NCBI GenBank assembly: GCA_024734495.1
Contig: JALMQS010000718.1
Coordinates: 159,925 to 223,924 of the forward strand
DNA length: 64,000 nt
Reading direction: 5' to 3'
DNA from: Forficula auricularia
Taxonomy: Eukaryota; Arthropoda; Insecta; Dermaptera; Forficulidae
Made by a program: the position numbers and the translations under genes. Numbering within the stretch: position 1 is the stretch's first letter; each line of letters opens with the position of its first letter. Shown here in pieces: positions 7,561 through 63,934 of the stretch. The notes below the pieces were generated by a model. It did no database searches, had not been told where the DNA came from, and worked only from the letters and a program-made list of their open reading frames with translations.

Positions 7561-7608
7561 TACAAACTCAATATATTTCGGATTATTAGTCCATCATCAG
7601 GAGTTTAC
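7561..7608 (-). ncRNA. Hammerhead-like ribozyme motif
   Basis: Read on the minus strand: AAACTC, CTGATGA, one T, GGA-loop-TCC, GAA, palindrome ATATAT, T, GAGTTT. Stem I (AAACTC/GAGTTT) and stem II (GGA/TCC) both pair. Confidence 0.55.
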
Positions 7609-7717
7609 AAGTTAAAACAGGTTTAGTGTAGTTTGTGTAGTTTAGTGTAGTTTTAGTGTAGTTTAGTGCAGTTTTGTGTAGTTTCACAGTGAATGAAATA
7701 AAACTCAAAGAGGTGTA

Positions 7718-7765
7718 TACAAACTCAATATATTTCGGATTATTAGTCCATCATCAGGAGTTTAC
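7718..7765 (-). ncRNA. Hammerhead-like ribozyme motif
   Basis: A second copy within the same foldback element, with a core and stems identical to the copy at 7561-7608. Confidence 0.55.
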
Positions 7766-7786
7766 AAGTTAAAACAGTTTTAACTT

Positions 7787-7834
7787 GTAAACTCCTGATG
7801 ATGGACTAAGAATCCGAAATATATTGAGTTTATA
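7787..7834 (+). ncRNA. Hammerhead-like ribozyme motif
   Basis: CTGATGA is at 7795-7801, stem II GGA 7803-7805 with TCC 7813-7815, GAA at 7816-7818 and the stem III palindrome ATATAT at 7819-7824. Stem I is AAACTC 7789-7794 paired with GAGTTT 7826-7831. The predicted scissile bond is after T7825. It faces the minus-strand copies across a short spacer. Confidence 0.57.
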
Positions 7835-8449
7835 TAAACCTCTTTGAGTTTTATTTCATTCACTGTGAAACTACACACCCTTTACTTTATTAATTAAATG
7901 AAAGAAAATTTCTTCAATTGGATGAGGGAGATGCGTTTATTCTTAAGGTATATACTATACATATTTGATAAGCGAGATACAGACTAACTGGGATTTTTAT
8001 AATTTTATAAACAATTAACAAATCCACACTAACAACTGACTTGGTAAAAAACTTATCTTCTGATGATTAGTTTAAAATATAAGCTTGAAATATCGACATA
8101 AGAAATATGATTTATTTCATCCCTGGCCTGCCTGCACCTATAGATCCTCCTTCATTCAGAATATATTTTGGGGGATTGAATTTTAATTAAAATTACAAGG
8201 AGATATAGTTTGTGTCGCGAAAACTTTCGTCACTTGATAAAAATTACCAAACCGTGATTGAAAGGCTTTGTATTTTTTTATTTTATTAATTTTTTTGATT
8301 GGCCAATTTCTGACTATATTGAAAATATTATATTATTTCTACATTTTTTAAAAGAAAGTTCTGAAGATATAAAACCAAAAATCTAATCAGTTTGTCGCTT
8401 TATAATAATATCTACAAAAGTTTTGGAATAAGCACATACTTTCTAGTTT

Positions 8450-8650
8450 GAAAGTTTATAATGGGAAATAAGGACAAGTTTTTTTTGTGTGATTTTTTTA
8501 TTTTTCAACCAACGTTTCGTCGACTTTGCCGACTTTTTCAGAGCTTCAAATAGCTACATCACACATTTGTCTGTACATTATTTTCTTTTATCTCCGTTAC
8601 TAATGAAGACCATCAGAAACTTAAAAATCAAAAAATTTGGCACATTTATA
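8450..8650 (-). repeat. Dispersed repeat with a damaged hammerhead-like motif
   Basis: This shares about 180 bp with 40725-40905, from AAGGACAAGTTTTTTTTG through the ribozyme-like core to CCATCAGAAACTT. A related form is at 58120-58330. The core (8506-8546, minus) reads CTGAAAA instead of CTGAAGA, so it has lost a key base, while stem II GTCG/CGAC and the ACGT stem III remain. Confidence 0.6.
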
Positions 8651-9029
8651 TAAATATTTTTTTCTTTTTACTAACAATTATATTAGATTAACAGTCTTAG
8701 AAATAATATAAATAGAATCAGAAAACACAGTTTTAAAAACAATAGAACTGAATCAGTTTCCTCATTAATCTTCAAATATAGAAATATCAAATTTAAATAA
8801 ATAAAAAAAGACAACAACAAAATTAAATAATATTCACTCTACATCCGTTTTTTCCAATCTTTTTTGTGCCATGTTCCACCTAAGCCTTTCTGTAATTCTC
8901 ATGTCCCGTATGTAACATATACACGATATTTCTTTATTTTATTAATGAATTATTATTTATATTAATATAATTACATAAAATATAAATAAATAACTGTACT
9001 AATTAAAATCCTCAAAATGTATTCTGAAT

Positions 9030-9240
9030 TTGAACTTTATTTGTGACGTTGGTGCGCCTGTATTTAGGCAACAATTTGCGCGCTAAAGAATGAAAGCTGC
9101 GTAAGAGCTAGGCGAGTCCAGTCGTTGGAATGCCCCAATGATACCTATTTGATTATTATTAATAAAAGAATAAACATATTAATATTTAAAATGACTTTGG
9201 ATAAAGTCTAGCTACGATCCGTTGCAGTTTATTTTTTCAA
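9030..9240 (-). repeat. Terminal segment of the 21.3-kb foldback family
   Basis: The stretch 9160-9234 matches the terminal arm at 21301-21375 in reverse complement, including the near-palindromic GCAACGGATCGT(T)GC end. The preceding 100 bases are GC-richer and unexplained. Confidence 0.5.
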
Positions 9241-9244
9241 TTCG

Positions 9245-9510
9245 GTATAAAATACTAATTTAAATAATTATATAATTTTTGTGTAAATGAGATTATAATT
9301 TCATGAAAATATCGAAAAATTTCTCATAAGTGAACCCTTTGTAACATTTACTCTCTTGACCAAAGTATATTTTTAAAGCCATTTTATTAATATTATATTT
9401 TTTCGAGTGTATATAAAATATTCATTTAAATTTTAGTATACTTTTTGAGGAAATGGAATTTCATTTTCCTATCAAAATCGAAAAATTTCTCATCCGACAT
9501 CACCCAATTG
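9245..9510 (+). repeat. Diverged tandem duplication of about 165 bp
   Basis: Two units share ATCGAAAAATTTCTCAT and the flanking TAAAATA...TTTAAAT context (near 9320 and 9480). The second unit happens to have splice-like borders, but the duplication argues against a gene. Confidence 0.5.
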
Positions 9511-10699
9511 AGGGTAAGTAAATTTGTTTTTTGTAGTAATAGTAAGCTAGGCACGTAACAAACGATTTATATACATCAAGCAAAGCAAATGCTCTTTAAA
9601 AATCATCAACTCTGCTATTCTCGGCAAACTAAATCTTTTCAATAACTCTGAGATGGTTTACAATTTACAAATTTTATCTCCGTTTTATTATATCTGCTAT
9701 CGTCGTTTTAAACTTAATATTTTTTATTATTAATGATTTTTGAAGATATTTTATTCGTGTGGTTTTCTTTATGTGAGAGTTTGTTAAAAAGTTTAAGTAA
9801 TAACAAGTCTGAGAATAGATTCAGATTTAGTTAGAGAAAAAGAATTCAGGATAAATGCAAAAAATCCTTCTTTCATGAGTCATCTGTCAAAAGAGATAAA
9901 ATTATTAATTTTTCTTGTCATTTGAAAATTCTTTATACTTTTGAAGGATTGAAGACAGAAAATTAATTCAAACAAGGTGGATATAAAATTTTAAATAATT
10001 ATTTTTCCCATTTTGAAGTTGACTTCCAATTAAAATATGGATCACGGTGACCATCCCTTTTTAATGGTTGGATTTCTTATTCAAATTGAAATCATTAAAA
10101 TTCTTCTAAGTTCTTTAACATTGTACTTATAAATGAGAGCCCAGGCGTATTTATTAACTCTCTTTAATTGCTATGTGACTTTCTAATTATAAGAATACAG
10201 ATTATTCAATTCTATAAAATCTGGTGCGATTAAGAAAGTATGTAGGAAGAATTAAAAGACATAGTTTTCACTTTTGTATTTTAGATTTTAATTAACGTGA
10301 CAAAATAATTAAGACGGTTTAACTTGTTTTTATCATTTCTTGTTTGGCTAATTTCAATGCACACTGAGAAAGGTAGCTGACGTTTCGATTTCTAATTCAC
10401 TCGATAATTTTAGTTCGGATTAAATCACTATACACTAACTGTGACCGCACCTCCAGGATTTTAACCCAACATTCCAATGCAGTGTTGACTGGGCAGATCT
10501 ACTATTTTCACATTAAAAAGTTTTTTCATTTATATGCTACATCGCCCTTTCTTTAATTTCGGTGTCTGGTTAAACAAGCCTTTTTAAAATTGAATCTTTT
10601 AATAAAAAAAGAAGATATTATTAGCTATCTAAGTTATTTATTTATACACTTGGTCAGAGAGCTAATTATAGGTAATATTTTCTTTATAAATTTTTACTT
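9511..10699. other. AT-rich DNA, no gene seen
   Basis: Only a partial copy (9570-9645) of the short dispersed repeat with CTCTGCTATTCTCGGCAAA is recognised. Nothing else can be supported. Confidence 0.4.
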
Positions 10700-10704
10700 T
10701 ACCA

Positions 10705-11400
10705 TACAGGGTATCGTCAAGTATTGTAATCGTGCATAAAAAAAGTGTTTTTTTCCTTCTTTTTTTCGAAATATCTCAAAAACGGCTGAAATTATTTTGA
10801 TTCAAAAAATGAGCGAAACCATGGCATTTTGCTCTACAAAAAAGCTCTAATAAGTGAACATCGAAACAATTGTATTTTTGAGATAATAATTATTTTGTCA
10901 AAATGTCTGTTAGTCTGTCTGGTTGTCCGTTAATCTGTGCATGACCAAATTTTTGAGGACGAGCTAGCTCAAAAACTAGTTTGAATATCAAAACCAAATT
11001 TCACACGTAGTTTTGGTCCATTGAGATTAAGAACTGAATAGATTTTGGTGTATATCGGCCCAAAATTAAGGGGATGGAGGAGGGGGGGGGGGTTTAAAAA
11101 TTAAACATCTAGGCCATTTGAGCAAACTCAACCAAATTTTGTATACATAATCAGTGGGACCCCAGAATTATAAAAATTCAAAAACTAACTCCCCTTCTTC
11201 TTCTTAGACTTCCATACCCGAAAGGGGTGTCGGCGCTTCTCCACATATACCTGTGCTGAGTGTGTTTAGTTGTTTTTACACAGATATACGGGACCTACTT
11301 TTTACCCCCCCCCCTACATGATTATAAATAATTTTAGGGGCCAGGTTGAATGGGAAAGTCAAGTGGATGGCCACATCAGAACCCGTCAGCTTATTTACTC
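10705..11400 (+). repeat. Dispersed repeat R with a short S module
   Basis: Text such as GTCAAGTATTGTAATCGTGC, CTCAAAAACGGCTGAAA and TTGGTGTATATCGGCCC recurs in reverse at 38035-38285 and, several times over, at 44040-45000. The segment at 11340-11400 holds AAGTCAAGTGGATGGCCAC, a core also near 24740, 37810, 42015, 44060 and 54690. There is no ORF. It is probably the untranslated end of a retroelement, but its class is unproven. Confidence 0.6.
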
Positions 11401-11689
11401 TTTGCCTAAGGAACAAGAGAGATTGAAAATAATTTAAAAATTAAAATAGAGAAACACGTTAAATTTTTTTAAATCTCGATACGCTCTCTGCAAATTAGGG
11501 TGATTTTACAATTTTTTCATCTAATGATTTGATCTAGGAAACTGAAACTTGATAGTAAAGTTCAACTTTTTAATTTAAGCATTTTTTGTTTCAGCTTGCG
11601 TACAAGTGTTTCTCCTGTAATTACTAAAATTTCTGCATTTTTCAACCGAATGTCATGACGGTAATGAGCCCAAAATCTAAGCAATTATT

Positions 11690-11945
11690 TTTTGTAAAGA
11701 GAAATAATTGAGATTATCATCTGCTTGAAACAAATAAACATATAAATATATATATATAATTTATATAAATATGTATATCTATATATAATTTATTTGTTAA
11801 AGACTATAGGACTTCTTAATTTATTTTCCTTTTAATTCCTAATTAATTTATATTTCATCATTTATTTGTTTCAAACAGAGGTCAGCCTCATTGATTTCCC
11901 TGTATGAATCAACAACTCTGGTACTCTCGGCAAAACAAATTTCTT
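11690..11945 (+). repeat. Dispersed repeat T
   Basis: The core TCATTGATTTCCCTGTATGA plus CAACTCTGGTACTCTCGGCA recurs near 9600, 17570, 27220, 33100, 38560, 47010, 49920, 50265, 50690 and 57430 in both orientations, often next to foldback elements. It is non-coding. Confidence 0.65.
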
Positions 11946-12114
11946 TAAATTAAATTATTTTTTTGGGAGAAAAAAACTTTATACCACCAGAAGGAGCTTT
12001 TTACGATACATCATCCTTCTTTGAATTCTCAAGGATATCAGGCTCCAGACACATTCAATCAATGAGACAAAAATGTATACCTGGAAATGATCTTACTCCA
12101 TGTATATTAGACTA

Positions 12115-12185
12115 GGTCTAGGGAGCTCGTGGGCCGCATCCGGCCCTCGGCGTCCTTACGTGCGGCCCGCGGTCATATATCACAT
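12115..12185. repeat. GC-rich hAT-type terminus
   Basis: A short GC-rich island reads GGGCCGCATCCGGCCC then GTGCGGCCCGCGG. This 'goes-with-CGGCCCGC' text is typical of hAT element ends, and the hAT relic at 40136 has a similar one. No partner end was found. Confidence 0.4.
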
Positions 12186-13340: not shown

Positions 13341-13344
13341 TTAA

Positions 13345-14089: not shown

Positions 14090-14800
14090 TTCAAATGCAG
14101 ACATTTTTCTGTGATTTCAATTTTTAAACGATCCAATAATGATGAATAATATGCGCCAGTTGTGGTTTTACCTTTTTCAAGATAGTCGATGAATATTATT
14201 CCACGCGTATCCTAAAATACGGAGGCCATAACCTTTCCGGTTTATTTTTGAGTTTTTGTACGCTTCGGAGCACTTTCAACCGGAGAAACCCATTGTTTTG
14301 ACTCTGCTGTGTAGAAATGGATCCATGTTTCATCCACGGTTATGAATCGGCGCAAAAACTCCTTTGAATTTCGCATAAACATTGCCAAATTCTGCTGGGA
14401 GTCCTAACACGAATTCGTTTTTGCTCCACTGTGAGCATACGCGGCACCCATCGCGCGCAGAGCTTTTTCATACCCAAAATATCATGTATGATATTGAACA
14501 CACTGCCATAGGACATCTTTGTGGTATCAGCTAGCTCCCTCAATTTCACTTTGGGGTCGTTCAACATAATATCATGGATTTTTTGGGCGTTTTCTGGTGC
14601 CAGACCTCTTTTGGGCGTCCAGATCTTTCACCATCACTTGTGCTTGTTCGGCCGCAACGAAAGTCAGAAAACTACTTTTGAATCATCTTCATCGACGGTG
14701 CAGAGTCCGGATAATACTTATCTAGCTTGGCTTTTTTATTGCGTAAATATTAGTGTTTAATCAGATCACGAAACTCAAGATTTTTCATTTTTAAAAAAAC
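14090..14800 (-). pseudogene. Mariner-family transposase relic
   Basis: On the minus strand, broken frames give VKLRELADTTKMSYGSVFNI (helix-turn-helix region), MKKLCARWVPRMLTVEQK, then ITVDETWIHFYT and GKVMASVF with IIFIDYLEKGKTT. The first catalytic aspartate of the mariner D,D34D triad lies in VDETWIH. The element stops near PHLKNCCGG, so the part carrying the second and third aspartates is missing. Several frameshifts and stops lie between these blocks, so it cannot make a working enzyme. Family membership is clear from the WVPR...LT and VDETWIH motifs. Subfamily is not resolved. Confidence 0.9.
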
Positions 14801-15856: not shown

Positions 15857-15899
15857 CATGAAACGTTTCGGCTTCAATTTGACGCCATCTTCAGTCTGC
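15857..15899 (-). ncRNA. Hammerhead-like ribozyme motif
   Basis: Minus strand: CTGAAGA, one T, GGC-loop-GCC, GAA, ACGT, T. Stem I is only two base pairs (GA/TC) before mismatches, so this copy is weaker than others. Confidence 0.45.
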
Positions 15900-16760: not shown

Positions 16761-17586
16761 AACATTTAGAGAAGGAAACAACTCAAGGTGGATACCTTTA
16801 ACATATAATAATGTAATTTTAGAAATGGTAAATTATAATTAATTAAAAATGATAGTAAATCAAATGATGAACTAAAGTAGACCACAATTAAAATTTGTTT
16901 TTTATTCAAGCAAAAAAATCGATAGCTCTCTGCTTGGTGGAGAGTAGTCATGAACGCTAACGGTAATCACAAGTCAAAAATTTGTGGAAATGGAGTTGTG
17001 TATCCATCTCTATATCTATTATGACCGTAATTCACACACAGCCTAGCCCACATGATCACTACTATCGTTTTAGAGAGATTCAGCAAAGAAACAAAGATCT
17101 TCAAGGCCATCGAAGCAGGAAAGTCAGTCTCACAATGGAACAACGACACTGATACGAGCTTCCATTAAAAATTTCTTTGGTGAAAAGTATTTCAGTATTC
17201 GCCCTTGCAGAAGAAGAATCTTATTCTGGTTGAGATTTTAAGAGCATGTTTCATTACTATTATATTTAATCCAGTCCTCGTCAGTGCAGCTGAGTATGCT
17301 GATATTTCTAAATAAAATTTTGATCAACCTTAGTTCTATAAGAAATTTGAAAAAGAATCGTATCTTCATATGACAATATGTTTTGGTTAAAATGACCTCA
17401 ACAAAAATTTCTCAAAGTTTTTTTTAGACTCGTTTTGAATCACCCAGGATTTAAAAGATTATATTATATATCCTATCAACAGATTTTAAAGATCTAATTG
17501 TTAGAAAAACAAATTGTTGTGTACCTAGTGCGGGTCTAAAGGAAAAAAAATTAAATTGAAAGTTTTTGCCGAGAGTAGTAGAATTT

Positions 17587-17850
17587 TTATATATTGAAGG
17601 AGACAATAAAAGAGTGTGTCTTCTGCTGGAATTATAAATTTTATTTATTTATAACGAGACTATAGTTTCGAGGGCTATGCCCTCTTCATCAGTCTATTAC
17701 AATGTATTCACATTCATAAATTAATTCCTGTGAATACATTGTAATAGACTAATGAAGAGGGCAAAGCCCTCGAAACTATAGTCTCGTTATAAATAAATAA
17801 AATGTATAATTTCAGCAGATGACACACTCTTTTATTGTCTCCTTCAAGGA
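17587..17850. mobile_element. Foldback element of about 250 bp with two hammerhead-like motifs
   Basis: The ends TTGAAGGAGACAATAAAAGA and its complement close a nearly perfect inverted repeat. The inner arms hold GAGACTATAGTTTCGAGGGC. Related copies lie at 49688-49900 and 57460-57672. The minus-strand core (17655-17696) is CTGATGA, A, GAGGGC/GCCCTC, GAA, palindrome ACTATAGT, C. The plus-strand core (17744-17786) has CTAATGA and is probably inactive. Confidence 0.8.
17655..17696 (-). ncRNA. Hammerhead-like ribozyme motif
   Basis: The six-pair stem II GAGGGC/GCCCTC abuts GAA. Stem III is an 8-nt palindrome ACTATAGT and stem I is short (GA/TC). Confidence 0.48.
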
Positions 17851-18595: not shown

Positions 18596-18599
18596 TTTT

Positions 18600-20461: not shown

Positions 20462-20505
20462 AAAACCGACGTTTCGGAGGCTATTCCCTCCTTCTTCAGG
20501 GTTTT
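20462..20505 (-). ncRNA. Hammerhead-like ribozyme motif, best stem I
   Basis: Minus strand: AAAACC, CTGAAGA, A, GGAGG-loop-CCTCC, GAA, ACGT, C, GGTTTT. Stem I has six perfect pairs and stem II five. The predicted cut lies between C (complement of 20468) and G (complement of 20467). Confidence 0.6.
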
Positions 20506-20591: not shown

Positions 20592-21112
20592 TCAGAATGT
20601 AGAATTATCGTTTTTTGTCTTGATATACAATTTTTCAATATTAGTCACCCAAGAGAGCGCAACATAAACGAGTTCCTGATGTGCTTTACTATACTCATAT
20701 ACTATTTCGTCAAAAGTTCCACCTTGCGACTTATGTATAGTTAGAGCAAGAGCTGAAGTTAATGGAAAATGTTTGCGTTTGGTTATACATTTTCTATCCG
20801 ATGTTAATGAAATATTTGCTGTTCGTAATTCAATGGGAACAACGAGATTGTAGACTCTATTTTGCACTGCTAGAGTGGCTGCTTTTAGCCTTTTTTTCTA
20901 CCCACTTTATCTGAACCACAAAATACCAGCCAAACTCTAATCAATGTGTTACTTTCATCAAATTCTAGATGTATCAATTTCCCAACAGCACCATTGCATA
21001 AACCATCAGTAACGTCGTTGCTGGTTGTAATAACATAATGCTTTCCAACAACAAAAGTAATGTGATAAGGCAGTCCTCCAGTGTCAATAACAGATTTTTT
21101 AGAGAGGAACAT
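20592..21112 (-). pseudogene. Pif1/Helitron-type helicase C-terminal relic
   Basis: Two minus-strand frames (21112-20885, then 20867-20592) are separated by a frameshift. The first has GKHYVITTSNDVTDGLCNGA. The second has FPLTSALALTIHKSQGGTFD and YVALSWVTNIEKLYI. IHKSQG and YVALSR-type motifs are late helicase motifs of the Pif1 family, which in animal repeats usually mark Helitrons. In the last motif the arginine is replaced by tryptophan (VALSW), and the N-terminal helicase and Rep parts are absent. The relic is inactive. A hammerhead-like motif lies 90 bp downstream and a GC-rich island starts within its 5' edge. Confidence 0.85.
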
Positions 21113-21290
21113 CTCCCCGCCCGAGCCGCCTCTCGGCCAAGAGACGGACGGTTCCGCTGGCTTTCGGCTGGCTGCTTGGAGGGGATTCTGGGCTGTGCCG
21201 GTCGGAGTGGGGGGTGTTAGGTTTATTTTCGTTACGGAATTTCTTGATTCGGTCGCCGCGCTGAAAGCCCGCGATAAAAGCTATGCAATA
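21110..21290. other. GC-rich island with abrupt borders
   Basis: About 180 bases are near 60% GC (for example CCCGAGCCGCCTCTCGGCC), wedged between the helicase relic and the terminal arm of a foldback element. Both strands carry short ORFs that overlap the borders, so none is taken as a gene. A captured host fragment or a separate repeat is possible. Confidence 0.5.
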
Positions 21291-21300: not shown

Positions 21301-22141
21301 ATAAACTGCAACGGATCGTTGCTAAACTTTATCCAAATTCATTTGAAATATTAATATGTTTGTTCCTTTATTATTAATCAGATATCACTTGCAATTTGTA
21401 GTTCATATTGACATTAATTCAAAAATAATTCTCATTTAATAGTCGAGGAATAACCATTCTACATTGGATTTTTGACATTTCGGTTATTATTGTAACCATT
21501 GCTGAAGACATAGAGGAATCGACTTAAAATCAAAAATAGCCATCGATTCTCATCTAATACTTGAGGAATAACAATTCTACATTAGGTTTTTGACGTTTCG
21601 ATTATTATTGGTAACCATTGCTGAGGACATGAAGGAATCGACTTAAAATCAAAAATAACGATCGATTCTTATCTAATACTAGAGGAATAACCTTATTGCA
21701 TTCCATTAATAGTCAAAACATCAAAAATGGAATGCAATAAGGTTATACCTCTAGTATTAGATAAGAATTGATCGTTATTTTTGATTTTAAGTCGATTCCT
21801 CCATGTCTTCAGCAATGGTTACCAATAATAATCGAAGGGTCAAAAATCTAAGGTAGAATTATTATTCCTCGAGTATTAGATGAGAATCAATCGCTATTTT
21901 TGATTTTAAGTCGATTCCTCCATGTCTTAAGCAATGATTACCAATAATAACCGAAATGTCAAAAATCCAATGTAGAATTGTTATTCCTCGACTGTTAAAT
22001 GAGAATCGATCATTATTTTTGAATTTAAGTCAACATGAACTGCAAATTGCAAGTGATATCTGATTTATATAAAGTAATAAACATATTAATATTTCAAATG
22101 AATTTGGATAAAGTTTAGCAACGATCCGTTGCAGTTTATTT
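21301..22141. mobile_element. Large palindromic foldback element (about 840 bp)
   Basis: The two halves are reverse complements. Each arm starts with the near-palindrome GCAACGGATCGTTGC, then TTATTAATCAGATATCACTT, then about 2.5 tandem units of roughly 118 bp containing GAGGAATAACCATTCTACA and a TTCGGTTATTATTGTAACC hairpin. The centre is at about 21715. A further copy (22690-23480) has one intact arm and a rearranged other arm. No ORF is present. Confidence 0.8.
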
Positions 22142-22689: not shown

Positions 22690-23480
22690 GCACTAAATGA
22701 AATAAATTGCAACGGATCGTTGCTAAACTTTATCCAAATTCATTTGAAATATTAATATATTTGTTCCTTTATTATTAATCAGATATCACTTGCAATTTGT
22801 AGTTCATATTGACATTAATTCAAAAATAATTCTCATTTAATAGTTGAGGAATAACCATTCTACATTGGATTTTTGACATTTCGGTTATTATTGTAACCAT
22901 TGCTGAAGACATGGAGGAATCGACTTAAAATACGATCGATTCTCATCTAATACTAGAGGAATAACCTTATTGCATTCCATTTTTGATGTTTTGACTATTA
23001 ATGGCAACCTCTACTGAAAACGTGGAAGAATAGACTTAAAATCAAAAAGACTAAATTCTTTTATGGCAAACAACTCAAGCTTGAGCTGTTTACAAAAAAA
23101 GATTTTAGTCTTTTTGATTTTAAGTCTATTCTTCCACGTTTTCAGTAAAGGTTGCCATTAATAGTCAAAACATCAAAAATGGAATGCAATAAGGTTATTC
23201 CTCTAGTATTAGATAAGAATCGATCGTTATTTTTTATTTTAAATCGATTCCTCCATGTCTTCAGCAATGGTTACCAATAAAAACCGAAACGTCAAAAACC
23301 CAATATAGAATGGTTATTCCTCAAGTACTAGATGAGAATCAATCGCTATTTTTGGTTTAAAGTCGATACCTCTATGTCTTCAGCAATGGATACCAATGAA
23401 AACCGAAACGTCAAAAATCCAATATAGAATGGTTATTCCTCAAGTATTTGATGAGAATCAATCGCTATTTTTGGTTTAAA
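22690..23480. mobile_element. Second foldback element of the 21.3-kb family, nested
   Basis: The left arm matches 21301 onward. The interior has an extra inverted repeat around 23060-23100 (CTCAAGCTTGAG at the centre). The right arm ends in the tandem unit without the terminal 100 bp. It sits between the two long direct repeats. Confidence 0.7.
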
Positions 23481-23509
23481 GTCGATTCCTCTATGTCTTC
23501 TTCAAAGGT

Positions 23510-24366: not shown

Positions 24367-24966
24367 GTAAGACAAACGTCAAATGGGCACTTTCTAGTTT
24401 CCTAAAATATACTTTTTCTTGTCCTAACTAGTTATTTAATTAATTGATTAACATACATATTATAATTAACATTATACTATATAGGGTGGTCAAAAATTCA
24501 TTCACTAAAAAATAAATGAATATACAGGGTGGTCTAATCTTCATTTACTATAAATATATTATTATACATACCGGTCCAAAGTTTTATTTACTAGAAAAAT
24601 ATAACTATGAAAATATGATTAGACATATATTATAAATGCTATACATATAGAACAGTTTTTCTATAATCGATTAAAATGTCACACACAGCATCATATAGTC
24701 AAACGGTGAAATTTCAAAGGCATAAAAGAGGGCACAGATGTATGGTAAAGCTATGTGGATGGCCAAATCAGCTTATTTGAAAAAGAAAATTCAATAAATT
24801 ATACTATTTAAATTATTTTACAATCGATATGGATAAACTATAATTTAGTATTTATAAATATACCTATATTTTAATGATCTTGTTTATTTTAAGGCCGATT
24901 AGAATTTGATCTTGATAAAGATTTTTTTAACTGAGAGCTTTTATCTCGTCGTTCGGGGGTTTTTTT

Positions 24967-26799: not shown

Positions 26800-27118
26800 G
26801 TAAAGAAATAATTTATTTGTTAGAGACTATAGTTTCAAAGTTTTGACTTTCATCATCAATCTTTTAATTAGAAATATTTTATTTGTTATTTCCCATGGGT
26901 TCAATTACAGAACCTAATATAGATAAATTCGTATTGTTGTTATAGCAAGCAAGCCACATAACAAAGGTTTTTTAGCAACAAAATGAATTTATCTATATCC
27001 AAACGGATAATTGAACCCATGAGAAATAACAGATAAAATATTTATAATCAAATGATTGATTATGAAGATAAAACCTTCAAAACTCTAGTCTCTAACAGAT
27101 AAATTATAATATGCTTAT
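26800..27118. mobile_element. Foldback element related to the 17.6-kb family
   Basis: Inverted arms contain TTAGAGACTATAGTTTC and its near-complement, TGGGTTCAATTA/TAATTGAACCCA and ATAGATAAATTC/GAATTTATCTAT. A related element is at 32260-32480. The embedded cores (TTGATGA, stem GAAAG/CTTT, GAAAC, TATAGTC) have lost the first C of CTGATGA. Confidence 0.65.
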
Positions 27119-30500: not shown

Positions 30501-33500
30501 TAAACAAAATTAATAAATTAGTCATTATAAAATAAAATAATTTCATTGAAATTTTTTCTCCCTTAAGGTTTGAGAGAAATTGTATTTTTCCATTATTAAA
30601 AAATAATATCCCACCCAAAAAATTCTTAATAAAAACAGGCCAAGTTCGAAAAACTAGTGAAATCTTCTGTGCAGCCAAGTTAAATTTGCCAAGAATAATT
30701 AAGTCGAGACAATAGTACTTTCAACGCATTCTTTCTATTTTAAATCACGACTTAGATTTATGGATTCTATATTTTTAATTTAAATGGTCTTCCTGAAACT
30801 TGACTGTAACACATTATCCCATTAGGGTAAATTAATTAAATTCGAGACTAGTCAAGTTTCAGGAAAATAATAAGTTAGCTTCTTTTTTTTTGGAAGGGAT
30901 AGTAATTTACCCTACAATCTTCACTCTTTCATGTATAGTTTAAATTTAAAATGAAAAATAAACATCTGAAATAATCAAATAAAAATAATATATATATTTT
31001 TTTAATAATTATAATAAGGAACAAAATAAAACTGCCAATGAGCCGGAGCCAACAGTTGATCCTGATGAATTTATTGATGATTTAGTCGAGGAATATTGTT
31101 ATGGAGAAGAATGCAATGTACTAATCAAAGATTATTGTAAACAAGGAAATTGTCAACTAGTAAGTATCTACAAGATTATTTTCTTTTTGGGAATATTACG
31201 ACTAAATTGGTCAATATTATAAATCATATGCGCCAATTAAGGCTATCTAATCTTGTAATCTTATATAATTTTTCTTTTAAACAATCTTTGAATTAAACAT
31301 AACAAGTATAATGTAGATAGAATATTAAATATAAATATATATATATATGTGTGTATAATGTAGGTATATGTTTATTTGCATCAAGCAGAGAAAAAACCTC
31401 ATTGATTTATCTTCTTTGCTTTTTTTAACTATTTTATTTATTTCTCATTATAATTCAATTAAGAACATTAGAAAACTTAAATATAAATTTAAAAAAATTA
31501 AATTTAATATACAATTTAAATTTATACTTAAATGATTCCCCCTTGTTTGTATGTGTGTGCGCCTTAGAAATTTCACTTACTTACTTCAATTATAAATAAT
31601 CATTATAATGGCAACCAACTTGCTATTATTGGAAATAAGAAAGTGATAGCTCTTAAATAGTTTGACAAAAAATTAATACAGTCGACTCTAGAAAATTCTA
31701 ATTTTTCGAAAATTCGAATTCTTCAACTGTTAACTTCGGTAAATCGAAAAAATGTTGTGTCTTTTGATACGCTCGATAACTCGAAATCCTTTTCGTAACA
31801 AGAGGGGAGAAAACGTTCTATAATTTGAACTAGGCCTTCCCCTCTTTATAATTCGAATTTTTCCTAGCAAAATTCCTAGGAAGCAACGCCAAACCACATC
31901 GAAACAAAAAACTATTCTTAATTTTTATAATTAGGTATGTTATTATATATTGATCCTGAGTGGGAGGATCGTAGGTCTATAAGGGGAGTTGTGGAGGCCC
32001 TTAAAAAAATTAAAAAAAAACAAATGTTAATTCATATTTATGTAATATTTTGTGGTTTTCATTATTTTTACTTTTTTACTTGATGTTATATATAAAATTT
32101 ATATAAGCTCATACATATTTTCAAAACATTTACCAAGAGCTGTTGGTAAAAGTGTAAGAAAATAGAGATTGACTTACTTAAATGCTTCTTAAGAACTATT
32201 AAATTTTTTTAAACAAAAATATAATAATTTTTAAAAAGTAAATTCCTTTTAGAAAAGAAAATCGTTTTGTTGTTATATCAAGCTAGCAACATAACATACG
32301 AATCGTTTCGTTGCTATGTGGCTAGCTTGCTATAACAAAACAAAACGAATTTATCTATATCCAATCGAGAAATTGAACTTTTGTGAATTAACAGATAAAA
32401 TATTTTTAATTAAAAGACTAATGATGAAGGTCAAACATTTGAAACTATAGTCTGTAAGAAATCAATTATAAATATACATATTTATATTCGTTATATATAC
32501 CTATGTATATACTTTTTACTTAGAGAAAGTGGTGTAGGTTTTAGGTGAAACATGATATTAATTAATAAAGTAAAGGGTGTGTAGTTTCACAGTGAATGAA
32601 ATAAAACTCAAAGAGGTTTATACAATCTCAATATATTTCCGATTATTAGTCCATTATCAGGAGTTTACAGGTTAAAATTAATAATATCTGAACGTTCGAT
32701 CACAATTTTTAACATCTAAATCATACGTACCAATATAACAAAATATAACATTCAAATCATACATTCCAATATAACACAAGAAAAACATCAACTAATTTAA
32801 ATTTTATTTATTGTTAAATGTTGATGTTTTTCTTGTGTTATATTGGAATGTATGATTTGAATGTTATATTTTGTTATATTGGTTCGTATGATTTAGATGT
32901 TAAAAATTATGATCGAACGTTCAAATATTATTAATTTTAACCTGTAAACTCCTGATGATGGACTAATAATCCGAAATATATTGAGTTTGTATAAACCTCT
33001 TTGAGTTTTAATTCATTCACTGTGAAACTACACACCCTTTACTTTATTAATTATGTATATACATATTTTCATCAAGCAGAGAACATCATTATTGATTTCC
33101 CTTTATGAATCAACAAATGTGCTTACTCTCGGCAAAAAAATATTTTCAATTATAAAGCTAACCTTGATTTGAACAAAATAAATTTATATTTTACTGTCTC
33201 TTTAGTTTTCAAATGATTGATGAGATTTTTATGACTTTTTTAACAAGAACTATCAATAAGACACATATTGATATTTTTTTTAATTGAATTTTGCTATTCA
33301 TAATTAAATCAAAATGAACATTTTTTTCAGAAACAAAATATACTACTAAATAAAACCATTGAAATGATGAAACCACAAGATGTTGTAACAATACGGCTAG
33401 CAAAACAATCTCAAGAAATATACGATATGCTATGGCATTTCAGTGTATCAACCTTAATTTTAGGATTAGTTAGCATAATTCTTGTTAAAGTGATCATCAT

Positions 33501-40757: not shown

Positions 40758-40796
40758 AACCAACATTTCGTCGACTTTGCCGACTTCTTCAGGGTT
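40758..40796 (-). ncRNA. Hammerhead-like ribozyme motif
   Basis: Minus strand: AACC, CTGAAGA, A, GTCG-loop-CGAC, GAA, ATGT, T, GGTT. Stem I pairs as AACC/GGTT where the 58.2-kb copies have AGCC/GGCT, a compensated change. Stem III has drifted from ACGT to ATGT. Confidence 0.52.
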
Positions 40797-49687: not shown

Positions 49688-49900
49688 TGAAGGAGACCAT
49701 AAAAGAGTGTGTCTTCTGCTGGAATGATAAATTAACCTAGCCACATGAAAGATTTTAACCTTTCATTCATAAATTAATTCCTATGAATCCATTTTAATAG
49801 ACTGATGAAGAGGTCAAAGCCCTCGAAACTATAGTCTCGTTTTAAATAAATAAAATTTATAATTCCAACAGAAGACACTCTTTATTGTCTCCTTCAATAT
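49688..49900. mobile_element. Foldback element, copy of the 17.6-kb family
   Basis: The ends TTGAAGGAGACCATAAAAGA and ATTGTCTCCTTCAA match the 17.6-kb element. The left inner arm is deleted, leaving one motif. Confidence 0.78.
49796..49838 (+). ncRNA. Hammerhead-like ribozyme motif
   Basis: CTGATGA at 49802-49808, stem GAGG 49810-49813 with CCTC 49821-49824, GAA 49825-49827, palindrome ACTATAGT 49828-49835. Stem I is short. Confidence 0.45.
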
Positions 49901-56615: not shown

Positions 56616-56621
56616 GTATTG

Positions 56622-57245: not shown

Positions 57246-57419
57246 GGTGACAATATTTTTTGGGGGAAATAAAGGACATATCGAAGAAAATAAAAAAAAT
57301 ACCTTATAAAATTCATAAGTTTATAACATTTATTACGAAAATAGTAGCGTTTAAATTTTAAACGTTCTTAATTATTACACATACACACACATTGTAAAAA
57401 TTTAAATAAATTAAATTGA

Positions 57420-57672
57420 AAGTTTTTTGCCGAGAGTAGCAGAATTTTTATATATTGAAGAAGACAATAAAAAAGTGTGTCTTCTGCTGGAATTATAAAT
57501 TTTATTTATTTATAACGAGACTATAGTTTCGAGGGCTTTGCCCTCTTCATCACTCTATTACAATGGATTCACAGGAATTAACTTATGAAAGGCCTCGAAA
57601 CTATAGTCTCGTTATAAATAAATAAAATTTATAATTCCAGCAGAAGGCACACTCTTTTATTGTCTCCTTCAA
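57420..57672. mobile_element. Foldback element, third copy of the 17.6-kb family
   Basis: Both ends and GAGACTATAGTTTCGAGGGC are present. The minus-strand core (57517-57558) reads GTGATGA and the plus-strand half is deleted before GAAACTATAGTCTCG. A T repeat abuts the left end, as it does at 17565 and at 49905. Confidence 0.78.
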
Positions 57673-58032: not shown

Positions 58033-58119
58033 CGACTTTACAAAATAAAGGACAAAACGCCTATTTTAGAAAATAAATAAATTATTATTATCATTTCCGT
58101 CTATAATTTGTATTAATTT

Positions 58120-58330
58120 GAAAGCTTATATTAGGAAAATAAGGACACGTTTTATGTGTGACTTTTTATATTTATCAGCCAACGTTTCGTCGATTTTTTC
58201 TTCAGGGCTTCATAGTCACGTCGCACATATTTGAAGCCCTGACTGAAGAAGTCGGTAAAGTCGACGAAACGTTGGCTGATCAATAAAAAAGTCACACATA
58301 AAAACTTGTCCTTATTTTCCTATTATAAAC
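58120..58330. mobile_element. Foldback element with two hammerhead-like motifs head to head
   Basis: Inverted arms run from AGGAAAATAAGGACA to its complement. The minus core (58177-58209) has lost one side of stem II. The plus core (58235-58277) has CTGAAGA preceded by a duplicated CTGA, stem II GTCG/CGAC, ACGT and GGCT. Confidence 0.72.
58235..58277 (+). ncRNA. Hammerhead-like ribozyme motif with a 4-base insertion
   Basis: CTGAAGA 58243-58249, A, GTCG 58251-58254, CGAC 58262-58265, GAA 58266-58268, ACGT 58269-58272, T, GGCT 58274-58277. AGCC at 58235-58238 could form stem I, but a CTGA duplication separates it from the core. Confidence 0.4.
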
Positions 58331-58579
58331 TTTCAAATTAAAATATATAAAATTAGAGGACAGAGCAGTGAAATAAAGGACTGTCCTCTTAAATAAAGAA
58401 CGTAGGGACACCGTAGCTATAATATATATATTATGCTTATTATTATTAGCTTCAGCAGAGGACAACCTTATTGATTTCTTTTTGATGAATAAAAATCTTA
58501 TTTGAGAAATATTTGAACCTGTAATCGGAGGAAATATTGAATCTCCAACCCCTGTTTGTCCAAGCCTCTTTCGCTTACT

Positions 58580-59658: not shown

Positions 59659-60718
59659 TCTATATAATAAAAATGAATTTCTGTTTCTTCGTAAGCGCAG
59701 ATCTCTCAAATGCCTGGACCGATTTGGCTATTTTTTTCTTTAAATGTTCGTAATAGTCCGATTCAGGTTAATACGTAAAAAATTGGAAATGTTCAGGAAA
59801 AAGTAAAAGAAATTCAGGTTAGCCATCATAGCTTGCCAAACAATAAAAGAACTAAACTAGCAAAAAAAAAACAAGTGTTGGTTGCCCTGTTTGTATTTTG
59901 AGTGTCATTCATTCTCAATAGTTCTAACCACATTATCATTGAAGAAGAATTTAATACTGCAACATAGATTTAAAAAAACTATCTATTTTTTTAATGTACA
60001 TTTAAAACCAAAAATTAAAAAAAAATCGTCATGATAACTAAATTTTTGAAAAAGTTTGGTTATTTAAAAAAAGCTATTAGAAACTACTACTAGGGTAGAA
60101 AAAAAAATAAAAAAGTTTCAGCCAAGCTTTTGATTATATATATAGATTAAAAATATTTAATTTAAAATAAAATATGTAATTAAAAAATCTTTTTTCTTAA
60201 AAATACCGTTGGAATCTCACTTCATCTTTTTTCTATTGTATTTAAGACCCTCAGCCATTTCAAAAGAACTAAGCCTTTTGGCTTTTGTATTCGAGCTCAT
60301 TCATTCATTTCAATATTATTTATTTCGAAGTTAATTATTGGAATTATACTAACTAAACTAACTGAAAGGAATTAATTAGCTTTTGGAATTTCTTTAAAAA
60401 TATATTTTAAAGATTAAAACCAAAATTCAATTAGCCCGTAGAATTCTTTAAAGAAAACAAAATCATTTGAAAACCCATTGTTATATTGTTTTGAAATCTA
60501 GGAAATTTCAGCCTATTGAAATTATTAAAAACCTATTTTGAGACTAATTAAACCTAAATTTTCTATAATCTAATAATAAACTTTAAAAGTTTACAATAAA
60601 ACAGCCACGTGGGGGTCCTGGGGGCGAAGCCCCCTGTCTCGGTAAAATAATTTTCATGACCTCTTGGAATTTATTATTCACTAGCTTCAAGGCCCGCCAA
60701 AGGCGGGCCTTTTGCTAG
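59659..60718 (+). mobile_element. Non-autonomous Helitron (about 1.06 kb)
   Basis: The 5' end TCTATATAATAAAAATGAAT has the TC start and AT-rich motif of many insect Helitrons. The 3' end has the hairpin GGCCCGCC-AAA-GGCGGGCC (60691-60709) followed by CTAG (60715-60718), the CTRR terminus. There is no Rep or helicase ORF inside. It would depend on an autonomous copy, for which the relic at 20.6 kb is a damaged candidate type. The host A before TC fits A/T insertion. The base after CTAG is A rather than T. Confidence 0.6.
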
Positions 60719-60796
60719 ACAGGGGGCTTTGGCGGGCCTTGAAGCTAGTGAATAATAAATTCCAAGAGGTCATGAAAATTATTTTACCGAGTCAGG
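60633..60796. repeat. 70-bp perfect inverted repeat at the Helitron 3' end
   Basis: The arms 60633-60702 and 60727-60796 are reverse complements with a 24-bp loop that holds the CTAG end. The duplication suggests two 3' ends joined tail to tail. Confidence 0.78.
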
Positions 60797-60899
60797 TACT
60801 GAGAGAAAAGCAATTAGTTTCTAGTTTATTTTTGAATACTGCCTGTATTTCTTATATGTACTGGTTCAGGGATCTAGCACTTTTAATAGAATAAGAACG

Positions 60900-62015
60900 T
60901 TCGAATTTTTATTTTATGAAATTATATTTTAAAGTATCATCCCTAAGCAATAATTAAATCTTTTTGACCATTGTTAAACAAATTGAAAAAAATATCGATG
61001 AATTTATTAAATACGGTATTATTTGTCAAATTATATAATATAATAATATATTATTTTCAGGAACAGTGAATTTTATTAAAAGCTATTGATAGAAGATATA
61101 GTTTCTCTAATTTGTCTGTGATTTATTGTTTTAATTAATGACAGAGAGAACTTTGGACTTGTTTACTTGTAAAGACCCGCCGACCATAACGAAGAAAGTT
61201 TACTCCTTAGAAAATATACAAGTATATAGGAGAATTGTTTGGTCTTTTGATTATGTCAGAGAAAGGACACAATATTAACAATTAAGTTAATATTAAAATT
61301 ATTATATAATTAGATTGAATGATCTATTTATACAGGGAAATTTAAAATATATCAAAAAAATAGTTTATAGTTTAGGTATATATTTAATTATTTTGCATTT
61401 ATATAGATATACATCAGTGGCGGTTGGTGACTTTTCAACCAGGGGATGCTGTCCAAAAAAGTGACTCATTTTTTTGAAATTTTATTTTAATCTTCGCTTT
61501 TTTTTTAAATTTCATTGAATACTGCATCATTTTCGTTATTTTTCAAATTTAACATTAGATTTTTTAAATATATATTTTGGGAACTTAGTCCCAAACGGAT
61601 ACTGCTTTGTGTGAGTGAAGATAGGAGTCAGAAATTCTATCTTGTGACTTCCCTCCATAGTCCCTGAGATAGAAATCGACCATCTTGCACAATGAATGAG
61701 CCTGTCCTATAAGAAAATCTTAAATTTCTCCTAATTCTATTGTTATAAGCAAGCTATGACTTGTCTATAGAACTCTTGGTTATTTACGATCTTATATATT
61801 GAGAGCTCTTTGAAATGGATTAGTCTAAAGATTCTCAAATCATCTTTATTTATTCCTTTTTTGTATTATTACTATTTTAATAGTTCCTGAACGAGAACAA
61901 TTTTTATTCGACTAAAACAGATCTGAACTTGTCTTTGACATGTTTGAATTGAAAGATACAGCAGGCAGGGTTTTCAAACCTTATATCCGCACCTTTTTCG
62001 AAAAACTCATCAACT
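60900..62015. other. AT-rich DNA, no gene seen
   Basis: CAGTGGCGGTTGGTGACTTT near 61414 is a probable DNA-transposon end without a partner. Confidence 0.35.
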
Positions 62016-62019
62016 CTTA

Positions 62020-62063
62020 GGAACTGATGATGGCATTATTTAATTAAAGCCGAAACGTTTTCC
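62020..62063 (+). ncRNA. Hammerhead-like ribozyme motif
   Basis: GGAA 62020-62023, CTGATGA 62024-62030, T, GGC 62032-62034, GCC 62049-62051, GAA 62052-62054, ACGT 62055-62058, T62059, TTCC 62060-62063. Stem I (GGAA/TTCC) differs completely from the other copies yet pairs. The predicted cut is after T62059. Confidence 0.57.
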
Positions 62064-62739
62064 ATAATTGGGAGTTTTTATTCAGCAGAGGCTACCCATT
62101 GGCTGAATCCCTCTCCATTACTTAATTATATACATATACAGGCATCAAAATTGTATCAAAAAAAAAATCATTCATTTTAATTGCCTCTTAAAACTATGCA
62201 ACAATTTTATTTTATCTCGAGACCCAATAAGTATTCTTTTCAAAATAAAAAAGTTTTTTATAGAAATATTTGAAATAACGGATAATAATTTGAAAATTTA
62301 AACATCCCCTTGAAATTATGAAGTTGGCCTTGTAATATTTATGAAAATACTCTAAATGTTTAAAATTTTAGGGATGGGACGCATCCATAGCATCCATGGA
62401 CCGAAAGCCCCCGATATAGGTACACATATGTACCTAGGTATATGCAAAATTACACCAACGACCATAGAAATTGTATAATCAAACGAAATTCTTTTAAATT
62501 AATATTATTTGTAATTGTAAATAATTTAAATATATTTCAATTAAATCCATGTAAATTATACAATGAGAGAGGGAGAGAAATTTCTCCTATAACCATATAA
62601 GGTTTGTACATTGAAAAAAAATAAATACTAGAATCCATTAGAAAATTCATAACGTGAATAGTGTAGCAGAGTTTAATTTTATAAGAAAAATCAATGAAAT
62701 TATCTCTGCTTATAGATAATTTTTCTTACATATCACTAG

Positions 62740-62831
62740 AGGTGGCTGTATTCACTCACCACGCGAATCGGACCCAAGTGCCAAACAACTACCCTAGGCG
62801 ATCTTTGAAAGCAAAACCAACCTACTATATG
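62740..62831 (+). other. Candidate coding exon
   Basis: Acceptor ACATATCACTAG and donor ATATG|gtatgt. One frame is open throughout: VAVFTHHANRTQVPNNYPRR then SLKAKPTYYM, with an NRT sequon. The other frames stop. It is followed after a 70-bp intron by an exon with a matching phase. No family is recognised. Confidence 0.38.
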
Positions 62832-62901
62832 GTATGTAAAACAATATTAAATGTAATTCAAAGATATTAACAATTTATTTTAAAATTTTTGTATGTTTCA
62901 G

Positions 62902-63009
62902 ATTTTGAAAGTTTTCAATACAACCCTTCTGTTGAGAAAAATATATAATATCTCTTTTATGAGTCTATTTTTGTGCATGAAAAATTGGCTAACAAATTAC
63001 AAGTTTTAA
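62902..63009 (+). other. Candidate terminal coding exon
   Basis: Acceptor TTTTTGTATGTTTCAG, phase 0, reading ILKVFNTTLLLRKIYNISFM then SLFLCMKNWLTNYKF and TAA. The intron before it (62832-62901) has the size and signals of a normal insect intron. The peptide is hydrophobic and AT-biased, so chance remains possible. Confidence 0.36.
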
Positions 63010-63039
63010 TGGAAATTTTTATTCCCTGATTATAATACT

Positions 63040-63080
63040 TACCAGCTGCGAAGCCCACCTTCGGCGGGCATCTTCCTGTC
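63040..63080 (+). repeat. GC-rich hairpin, possible Helitron 3' hairpin
   Basis: GCCCACC-TTCG-GCGGGC, similar to the hairpin at 60691. No CTRR terminus or 5' end was found nearby. Confidence 0.35.
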
Positions 63081-63084
63081 CAAA

Positions 63085-63885
63085 AACTTCTTGATATATT
63101 GACCCTGAACATTCGTGGGTTTTAAAATAAAAATTTTAATAAATTTGAAATAAACTATTTGTGGGTTTTAAATGAGTGGCTCGCGACGGACAGCATAAGC
63201 GCTTTATAATAGAAGATATTTAATTCCCACTTGATGAATTTTTGGAAGTAAATACTTTTCATTTTATAATTAAGCGATTGAATATTTCCTAAAAATGAAT
63301 GATTAATCCACGTAGAAATTCAAAGCGATAATACTATAAAGAAGCAATTATAAAACAAATTTAATTTCCTCGATGGATTCTTGTATTTGTGATGATCATA
63401 AATAAGGGTTGTTGGCCGAATTTGATTAAGACAAGAGACGAATTACAGCCCAGCTTCCAACTTGTTAGTGTAAACAAGCCATGAAATATAGGAGGCGAAA
63501 AACTAACATGATCACGACCCCCCCCCCCCCGCAAAGGGTAGGAGCTCGTCCCCCATTGTCAATATTTGTCACAAGTCAATGACAATCACAAACAGAAAAG
63601 TTAAGCCGGGAAATAAATTTTTCGGAAATATATAAATTTATATCCATTATTGGGAGAGAGTTAATTAGAAGAAATAATAAATAACAAATGGAAAAGGCAC
63701 GAACAAGGGAGGCTTTCGGCAATCTTCCAATATACGATCGACTGCAATTCAATTTCATTCTCTGAAAACTAATTGAAACATGTAAAGTAAGATTTTAATT
63801 AATAATAGCAATCATTTGCGAATATTATGTCTTAATGAAAAATAGAATCCTAATAAAATTAATTTATTGGAAAGTTACTTTCATC
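63085..63885. other. No gene seen
   Basis: AT-rich, with a C12 run near 63520 and an unsupported antisense ORF at 63576-63758. Confidence 0.35.
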
Positions 63886-63892
63886 CTCTTAA

Positions 63893-63934
63893 AAACTGAC
63901 TTTTCGGAGGATCTTCCCTCCTTCTTCAGAGTTT
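63893..63934 (-). ncRNA. Hammerhead-like ribozyme motif
   Basis: Minus strand: AAACT, CTGAAGA (the shared T/C overlaps), A, GGAGG-loop-CCTCC, GAA, AAGT, C, AGTTT. Stem I has five pairs, differing from the 20462 copy while stem II is the same. Confidence 0.52.

Follow-up and report, generated by a model that had tools for sequence, protein, structure and literature searches.

Hammerhead-type motifs with one extra core base, very likely derived from Penelope-like elements, recur in the genome of Forficula auricularia

We analysed a stretch of 64,000 nucleotides (nt) from Forficula auricularia (GenBank assembly GCA_024734495.1, contig JALMQS010000718.1, positions 159,925 to 223,924 of the forward strand; hereafter the window), in which a hammerhead-type ribozyme motif recurs in about eight sequence families (F1 to F8). 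The sites are very likely minimal type I hammerheads of endonuclease-bearing Penelope-like elements (PLEs), whose non-coding remains the window holds, with ribozyme activity as a prediction only. These remains comprise 3' ends and short head-to-head insertions with target-site repeats, as observed for family F7; we infer a head-to-head PLE-insertion nature for F1 and F4 as well.

A hammerhead-type motif above chance expectation

The recurrent hammerhead-like motif that an earlier, sequence-only reading of the window had proposed proved to be real. The window contained 24 instances of the open pattern CTGANGA...GAAA, where 5.0 were expected (sd 2.3), and none of 100 shuffles reached 24. The full descriptor (core, stem II of at least 3 bp, palindromic stem III starting with A and ending with T, a position H17 other than G, and stem I of at least 4 bp) matched seven sites in four families (20499-, 7600-, 7757-, 7795+, 32952+, 40792-, and 62024+). 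The same descriptor gave two matches in total, in two different shuffles, over 300 dinucleotide shuffles, and no site at all with 179 permuted cores. A looser score scan of the window returned 12 rows scoring at least 30, against 0.19 per shuffle, and nine of these reached 36. Since the top value over 100 shuffles was 35.5, the three lowest rows are individually within chance; the row at 17689 is an alternative frame of site 17692. Beyond the window, 19 spaced 10-kb genome stretches (L009 to L027, taken at fixed rather than random positions on every 42nd contig, 19 of 20 of which existed) contained 11 rows scoring at least 30, compared with 0, 1, 1, 0, and 1 in five shuffled sets. The motif of the window is a real hammerhead-type motif that exceeds chance.

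An Rfam scan of the window found no hammerhead family even at E ≤ 10; the 22 matches obtained at that threshold were mostly miRNA-precursor models on hairpins. The motif is therefore outside the curated models, which miss the hammerhead variant of the window altogether. A first descriptor with stem II placed directly after A9 likewise had zero window matches, and it was because of this that an extra core base was recognised.

About sixteen sites had been proposed. Their recurrence was confirmed, and the count became 21 hammerhead-like sites, whole or decayed, a set that was accepted by eye and by family likeness from the pattern and score listings. The stem pairs that had been given are also present, with corrections needed at 58235 and 63893, for the F7 sites 17692, 49802, and 57553, whose stem I has just two contiguous pairs, and for the extra base, which had gone unmentioned. 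The sites and their carriers are as follows.

7561..7609, minus: F1 hammerhead, first direct copy; stem I AAACTC/GAGTTT, core CTGATGA + T, stem II GGA/TCC, stem III ATATAT, H17 T (site 7600, full descriptor)
7718..7766, minus: F1 hammerhead, second direct copy, 157 bp from the first (site 7757, full descriptor)
7786..7834, plus: F1 hammerhead, inverted arm, head-to-head with 7757 (site 7795, full descriptor)
7498..7897, no strand: F1 carrier, a 157-bp unit in direct tandem and then a copy in inverted orientation (repeat and inverted-repeat analysis)
32943..32991, plus: F1 hammerhead, second locus (site 32952, full descriptor)
32660, minus: F1, decayed mate of 32952+ (score scan)
32559..33053, no strand: F1 foldback carrier, 234-nt arms with 27 nt between (inverted-repeat analysis)
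20462..20505, minus: F2 hammerhead; AAAACC/GGTTTT, CTGAAGA + A, GGAGG/CCTCC, GAAA, stem III ACGT (site 20499, full descriptor, top score-scan row)
63893..63934, minus: F3 hammerhead; AAACT/AGTTT, CTGAAGA + A, GGAGG/CCTCC, non-palindromic stem III AAGT, H17 C (site 63929)
8507..8545, minus: F4 hammerhead, decayed core CTGAAAA (site 8541, score scan)
40758..40796, minus: F4 hammerhead; AACC/GGTT, CTGAAGA + A, GTCG/CGAC, stem III ATGT, H17 T (site 40792, full descriptor)
58177..58209, minus: F4 hammerhead, stem II lost, mate of 58243 (site 58205)
58235..58277, plus: F4 hammerhead, with a duplicated CTGA separating stem I AGCC from the core (site 58243)
58113..58341, no strand: F4 foldback carrier, holding 58205 and 58243
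62020..62063, plus: F5 hammerhead; GGAA/TTCC, CTGATGA + T, GGC/GCC, stem III ACGT, H17 T (site 62024, full descriptor)
15860..15896, minus: F6 hammerhead; GA/TC only, CTGAAGA + T, GGC/GCC, stem III ACGT, H17 T (site 15894)
17656..17694, minus: F7 hammerhead; GA/TC, CTGATGA + A, GAGGGC/GCCCTC, stem III ACTATAGT, H17 C (site 17692)
17747..17785, plus: F7 hammerhead, other arm, core CTAATGA (site 17752)
49800..49838, plus: F7 hammerhead (site 49802)
57517..57555, minus: F7 hammerhead, core GTGATGA (site 57553)
26822..26862, minus: F7b hammerhead, core TTGATGA (site 26859, score scan)
32416..32454, plus: F7c hammerhead, core CTAATGA (site 32421)
7280..7327, minus: F8 hammerhead-like remnant, outer arm of the F1 foldback (site 7321, accepted by eye)
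8052..8100, plus: F8 hammerhead-like remnant, other outer arm of the F1 foldback (site 8060, accepted by eye)

Core, extra base, and stems

The hammerhead core CUGANGA...GAAA is present in the window sites, and the motif runs in the order stem I 5' strand, CUGANGA, one extra base, stem II, GAA, palindrome (A...U), H17, and stem I 3' strand. Its anatomy was scored on 62 rows, which contain doubled sites (L001/L002 and L003/L004 overlap, L034/L035 are alike) and many copies of one family, and on the 19 clusters obtained by grouping these rows at 0.75 similarity and keeping the first member. One extra base lies between CUGANGA and stem II in 60 of the 62 rows (A or T in 57) and in 17 of the 19 clusters (A or T in 15), a departure from the canonical placement of stem II directly after A9. 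A palindrome follows GAA in 54 of 62 rows and 14 of 19 clusters, compared with 261 of the 1,250 GAAA occurrences in the window under one rule for all; the palindromes seen were ACGT, ATGT, ATAT, ATATAT, ATATATAT, ATATATATAT, and ACTATAGT. In those same rows and clusters a helix III with A15.1-U16.1 would exist solely as this mostly loopless palindrome. A loopless 4-nt stem III is impossible within one copy and possible between two copies. It should be noted that an H17 other than G was a requirement of the descriptor and hence is no independent evidence.

The predicted single-strand fold of the F2 site formed stem I and stem II and left the stem III letters open. Cleavage of this site would be expected after the C at 20468. 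In a MAFFT alignment the core and GAAA were in register, and the stem I 3' strands were out of register because stem III varies in length. Contiguous stem I pairs numbered just two in the F6, F7, L018, and L048 types, and there were none at 58243, L013, and L015-1358.

For the CChMVd viroid, De la Pena and Flores (2001) reportedly described a hammerhead whose core has one additional base, placed between A9 and G10.1, with A or U being tolerated or even speeding the reaction, and C and G being harmful. One extra core base would then be an exception among viroids, whereas in the F. auricularia genome it is the rule.

Stem I covariation

For a rule-based measure of covariation, the 62 rows were reduced to the 19 clusters and then to the 14 with a palindromic stem III, and the register was set from the palindrome alone; the five clusters without a palindrome fall out of the count. 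With the longest palindrome, 21 of 28 stem I cells paired at depth 2 (shuffled mean 11.8; reached by 4 of 10,000 shuffles) and 32 of 56 at depth 4 (mean 21.4; 40 of 10,000). A hand-picked set of 18 representatives gave higher values, with 33 of 36 cells at depth 2 (shuffled mean 17.0) and 56 of 72 at depth 4 (29.6), neither reached in 20,000 shuffles; one representative per distinct stem I triplet (11) gave 19 of 22 and 33 of 44 cells, which 1 and 0 of 20,000 shuffles reached. Some of the hand-picked representatives are mutually related, and the palindrome length was chosen for more stem I pairs. This set also omitted L001 1317, L014 1644, L014 4993, L010 1822, L018 8646, window 6669, and F8, and used 58205, given the stem II of its mate, instead of 58243. 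The rule-based recount is the trustworthy covariation figure and is weaker than the hand-picked one. A corresponding count for stem II is circular because stem II served to select the sites.

Among unselected sites, stem I covariation is present but modest, and its signal is carried by families such as F1, F2, F4, and F5. The covariation between families that had been claimed from hand-picked examples is thus there, at less strength under rule-based picking.

Abundance in the host genome

The host genome (1.06 Gb, 845 contigs) was searched by whole-genome pattern counts, with the reversed pattern as control and places listed for the first 100 matches. The strict pattern with an extra A or T, CTGANGA-W-GG..CC-GAAA, had 63,004 matches, compared with 8 for the reversed pattern. 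An extra C in that core position had 198 matches (control 2), and no extra base had 574 (control 8). Of the 100 listed matches without an extra base, many seem by eye to be main-family sites changed by one base. Eleven of the 100 belong to one small family, CTGAAGAGGGTTGCCACGAACCCGAAA, with stem II directly after A9 (e.g., C25:490521 and C25:491044); this is the largest family of canonical spacing noticed among the 100 listed matches, a few others of which look canonical as well. The open pattern CTGANGA...GAAA had 274,145 matches against 36,282 for its control.

The kind of motif is already known, namely PLE hammerheads without helix III; the copy number and the core insertion are remarkable. 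Among literature titles and abstracts, none was recognised as describing such copy numbers in one animal genome. A 2017 paper defining PLE hammerhead variants is said to give about 150,000 over all genomes searched, and if so, the host genome alone falls in that range.

Link to Penelope-like elements

The sequence-only reading had hinted at Penelope-like elements, and the position of the motif in PLE loci agrees with this. A first look at GIY-YIG endonuclease frames in the host genome gave 3,423 candidates, of which 150 were scored and listed, all above the cut-off; several of these domains sit within open frames of 858-864 aa. Of the 20 loci with the best GIY-YIG scores, 15 have a motif in the same sense located 306-758 nt 3' of the domain, a region in which none of them has an antisense one. 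At two of the 20 loci an antisense motif does occur on the opposite side, some 1,050 nt away, as expected of inverted pseudo-long terminal repeats (pLTRs). Furthermore, PLE coding was found in 3 of the 19 spaced stretches, L010 (two coding stretches), L014 (one), and L026 (two). Both coding stretches in L010 are followed by the motif, and in L014 the motif lies at the edge of the stretch.

The locus L048 represents a tandem PLE: its motifs recur at a distance of 2,909 nt, and the 858-aa frame between them contains RVT_1 (E 1.6e-16) and GIY-YIG (E 8e-6) domains. Its motif lies between the end of one open reading frame (ORF) and the start of the next, in the pLTR. Among 7,994 candidates scored for this frame, the best protein match reached 58%; proteins of Parnassius mnemosyne matched at 39%, ahead of those of Diabrotica and Bemisia, and the relatives also include proteins of Folsomia, Xenopus, and Schistosoma. 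The start of the next frame in L048 holds CTCTGCTACTCTCGGCAAAACAAAAACTTTTCAATTAA, and CTCTCGGCAAA with similar surroundings is common to this start and to seven copies in the window, which are given here as PLE tails.

11900..11962, plus: PLE tail CTCTCGGCAAA; the identical eleven letters also at 33126+, 47027+, 49916+, 57436-, 50258-, and 17575-

Four of these tails lie outside the three F7 insertions of the window (11924+, 33126+, 47027+, and 50258-) and are probably the 3' ends of other PLE copies.

Window families could also be matched to individual PLE loci. The window F7 copies matched L041 and L043 best, at 92-95% along some 180-220 nt, and the F7 matches shown ranged overall from 88 to 95%. 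L043 is the clear F7 partner because its F7-type motif is the one located 306 nt 3' of the GIY-YIG domain. F7b (26822..26862) matched the PLE loci L039, L047, and L048 at 76-79%. F5 matched L014 46-2 (minus) at 98% over 45 nt, in the same sense as the PLE coding and 474 nt 3' of it, and the part downstream of F5 matched the other side of the L014 coding at 83%. F2 matched L010 7156-7206, 714 nt 3' of PLE coding, at 86% over 51 nt, mostly the motif itself. By these alignments, F7 and F5 are tied to PLE copies of the host genome, and F2 more weakly. The clearest carriers are PLE remains, and the earlier description of the carriers as many unrelated repeats was not borne out.

Three side observations concern the same loci. 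On C563 (410889-416831), three PLE endonuclease frames about 2,909 bp apart form a tandem PLE array, of which L048 is one full unit. L034 (C21) and L035 (C723) have equal GIY-YIG scores and motif positions and are either recent copies or assembly duplicates, and L032 and L033, both on C60, score alike. L029 is a GIY-YIG locus without the motif that holds the outer stretch of the window F1 element.

Short head-to-head insertions

The three F7 carriers of the window are short insertions.

17551..17847, minus: F7 insertion w17, 297 bp, head-to-head, one-sided tail, flanking repeat TTTTTTCC(TT); best matches 92% to L041 and L043
49687..49941, plus: F7 insertion w49, 255 bp, flanking repeat GAAAATACAAG(T) (alignment of F7 copies)
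57411..57672, minus: F7 insertion w57, 262 bp, flanking repeat TTATTTAAA(TT) (alignment of F7 copies)

Five F7 copies were aligned: these three, one from L024, and one from L018. Both ends are present in four of the five (the three window copies and L024), which measure 252-297 bp and have a tail on one side but not the other; the L018 copy has neither a tail nor a second arm. The four two-ended copies are flanked by shared stretches of 10, 12, 11, and 12 nt, and equal or longer stretches arose in 1, 0, 9, and 1 of 500 shuffles, respectively. Their inner junctions differ by eye. PLE insertions are described as having head-to-head inverted pLTRs, a one-sided 31-bp tail, and target-site duplications (TSDs) of 8-10 bp (PMC3846280), and four of the five aligned F7 copies have this anatomy of a tail at one end, a short TSD, and head-to-head pLTRs. 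The foldback carriers noted in the sequence-only reading do exist at F1, F4, and F7; they are not just a foldback habit of unrelated repeats, the F7 foldbacks being head-to-head PLE insertions.

Such foldbacks could also be foldback or MITE-like (miniature inverted-repeat) DNA transposons that carry a palindromic hammerhead-like sequence by chance, and the long inverted arms and short spacers would suit them. However, the F7 tail is one-sided, the flanking repeat lengths and inner junctions differ among the four two-ended copies, the spacing of GGACTAATAATCC-type pairs varies within one family (45, 52, 67, and 95 nt), and the tail in the insertions matches a PLE (L048), so that we consider this origin highly improbable. 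For F7 itself, a DNA-transposon foldback was rejected on its asymmetric ends and differing junctions.

A second alternative is that the carriers are metazoan non-LTR retrozymes, short tandem hammerhead repeats that spread as small RNA circles and are mobilised in trans. F1 contains a 157-bp direct repeat with one motif per unit, the carriers are small and non-coding, and PLEs have been proposed as retrozyme helpers (PMC7761336). In published retrozymes, however, the hammerheads are of the canonical type I form and sit in tandem repeats (PMC7229834), whereas the motif studied here has an extra core base and no helix III. Among the first 100 listed genome matches there were 18 neighbouring pairs at most 450 nt apart, of which 16 were divergent, one tandem, and one convergent; the tandem share was two of six close pairs in the window and the 48 loci. 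No tandem array of canonical type I hammerheads was found among the carriers, F1 alone having a two-copy direct tandem, and the F7 carriers are head-to-head inserts bearing PLE tails. We regard a retrozyme origin as unlikely.

A model for cleavage and insertion

According to reviews, helix III is usually absent from the hammerheads of PLEs, cleavage may take place in dimers, and no role is established for them (PMC6155905, PMC7761336); their role in PLEs was termed a mystery in a 2020 review (PMC7761336). The PLE hammerhead of the anole cut only with added protein (PMC11167929). Given the review statements and the anole hammerhead's dependence on protein, we judge it likeliest that the source elements would cleave as dimers or with protein help. 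In our model, PLE RNA would carry one motif per unit, in tandem, and two motifs in a tandem PLE transcript could therefore pair via their palindromes. Each unit would supply the core, stem II, and half of the palindromic stem III, and two units, or one unit plus the PLE protein, would complete the cleavage site, which would be cut after H17. Source elements would maintain the core and stems, whereas the majority of copies in the genome, and the foldbacks in particular, are probably inactive by now.

The foldbacks would originate at insertion. A purified PLE enzyme was reported to cleave both strands of the target and to extend each of them, its two start sites marking the bounds of the tail (Frangieh et al., PMC11167929). 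Complementary DNA (cDNA) could be primed from each of the cut strands, using two positions close together on the RNA, giving a long cDNA end with the tail and a short end without it, and the two cDNAs may then be joined at their 5' ends. For inverted pLTRs, PMC3846280 favours self-priming on an antisense template, and the present data do not choose between self-priming and both-strand priming.

Several observations weigh against the PLE reading or parts of it. Five of the 20 best GIY-YIG loci lack a nearby motif, as do both PLE coding stretches in L026. The F1, F3, F4, and F6 motifs matched no PLE 3' region among the 24 loci compared, and F1 matched L029:2421-2511 (97-98% over 65-85 nt) only outside the motif. 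In L041 the F7 stretch sits 3' of that PLE's own, different motif and therefore may be a separate insertion. Close pairs in the window and the 48 loci were three divergent, two tandem, and one convergent, after one double-counted site was dropped. With the shortest palindrome, stem I pairing fell to 18 of 28 cells at depth 2 (mean 12.2; reached by 267 of 10,000 shuffles) and 30 of 56 at depth 4 (mean 21.1; 116 of 10,000), and the first pair was at chance (8 of 14; 3,492 of 10,000). In both the intact autonomous family (L048) and F7, stem I has just two contiguous pairs, and for the F7 site the predicted fold favours another pairing, AGACT/AGTCT. Foldback transcripts, with predicted hairpins of -123 to -210 kcal/mol, should bury the motif according to these folds; that RNA cleavage still matters in foldback copies is doubtful because their transcripts are predicted to form one long hairpin. 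Lastly, insertion in vitro did not depend on the anole PLE hammerhead, whose cut site yielded no reads (PMC11167929).

Some of these points would suit a third alternative, in which the motif is retained as DNA, or as an RNA hairpin bound by protein, for recognition by the PLE protein or endonuclease and the ribozyme role is gone. The weak stem I of the intact autonomous family, the just modest covariation in the rule-based set, and the dispensability of the hammerhead for insertion in vitro (PMC11167929) all point this way. However, the letters that the sites have in common belong to the hammerhead catalytic core (these letters were the search pattern itself, yet the permuted cores gave no site with the same stems), and stem I covaries where it is longer. 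We find the loss of the ribozyme role doubtful and retain the minimal PLE hammerhead as the preferred reading.

Comparison with known systems

The motif resembles the minimal type I PLE hammerheads (Cervera and de la Pena 2014, as summarised in PMC7761336) in its core, the lack of helix III, its place in the pLTR, and its tandem arrangement, and differs from them in copy number within one genome; this comparison does not set the extra base against the published consensus. Like Poseidon of Anolis carolinensis (PAc; PMC11167929), the host elements have an ORF with reverse transcriptase (RT) and GIY-YIG domains, hammerhead stems I and II, and a tail, which in PAc lies between two RT start sites. 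The PAc ORF starts at stem II, whereas the open frame of L048 starts 138 nt after the motif start. The Penelope families of Adineta vaga (PMC3846280) share the head-to-head inverted pLTRs, the one-sided tail, and the TSDs; that account does not contain the word hammerhead, and the F7 inserts are tiny by comparison. Metazoan retrozymes (PMC7229834) are likewise small non-coding hammerhead carriers; their RNA circles have been demonstrated, whereas the host motif is known from DNA sequence alone.

We further propose, as a possible rather than a probable extension, that PLEs in this host made a one-base-inserted hammerhead without helix III their standard, probably kept active by the PLE protein or by two-unit pairing, and that it spread to about 10^5 sites, many of them head-to-head double-cDNA insertions made anew at each integration. 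The genome would thus record very many both-strand priming events and serve as a natural library of covariation for a hammerhead that acts as a dimer or with protein assistance. Given 63,004 strict matches, apparently intact autonomous PLEs, varied stem I strength, and many head-to-head pairs, two questions would become approachable: whether cleavage takes place in dimers or with help from protein, and by what route PLEs produce inverted insertions.

Other features of the window

Positions 20592-21280 (minus) gave Pfam matches to UvrD_C_2 (E 3e-5) and Herpes_Helicase (E 5e-5), both under the cut-off, and end about 90 bp before the F2 hammerhead; we read this segment as putative remains of a Helitron-type helicase. 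A 119-bp tandem repeat forms large inverted arms at 21428-22031, with a second set 1.3 kb on at 23111-23500, and its units contain a weak hammerhead-like stretch. At 14340-14627 (minus), a short frame in our reading resembles the start of a mariner/Tc1 transposase, with Pfam giving HTH_24 only (E 0.06). A tandem pair at 24478-24568 starts with TATACAGGGTGGTCAAAAATTCA, which we take to be a motif of insect transposon ends.

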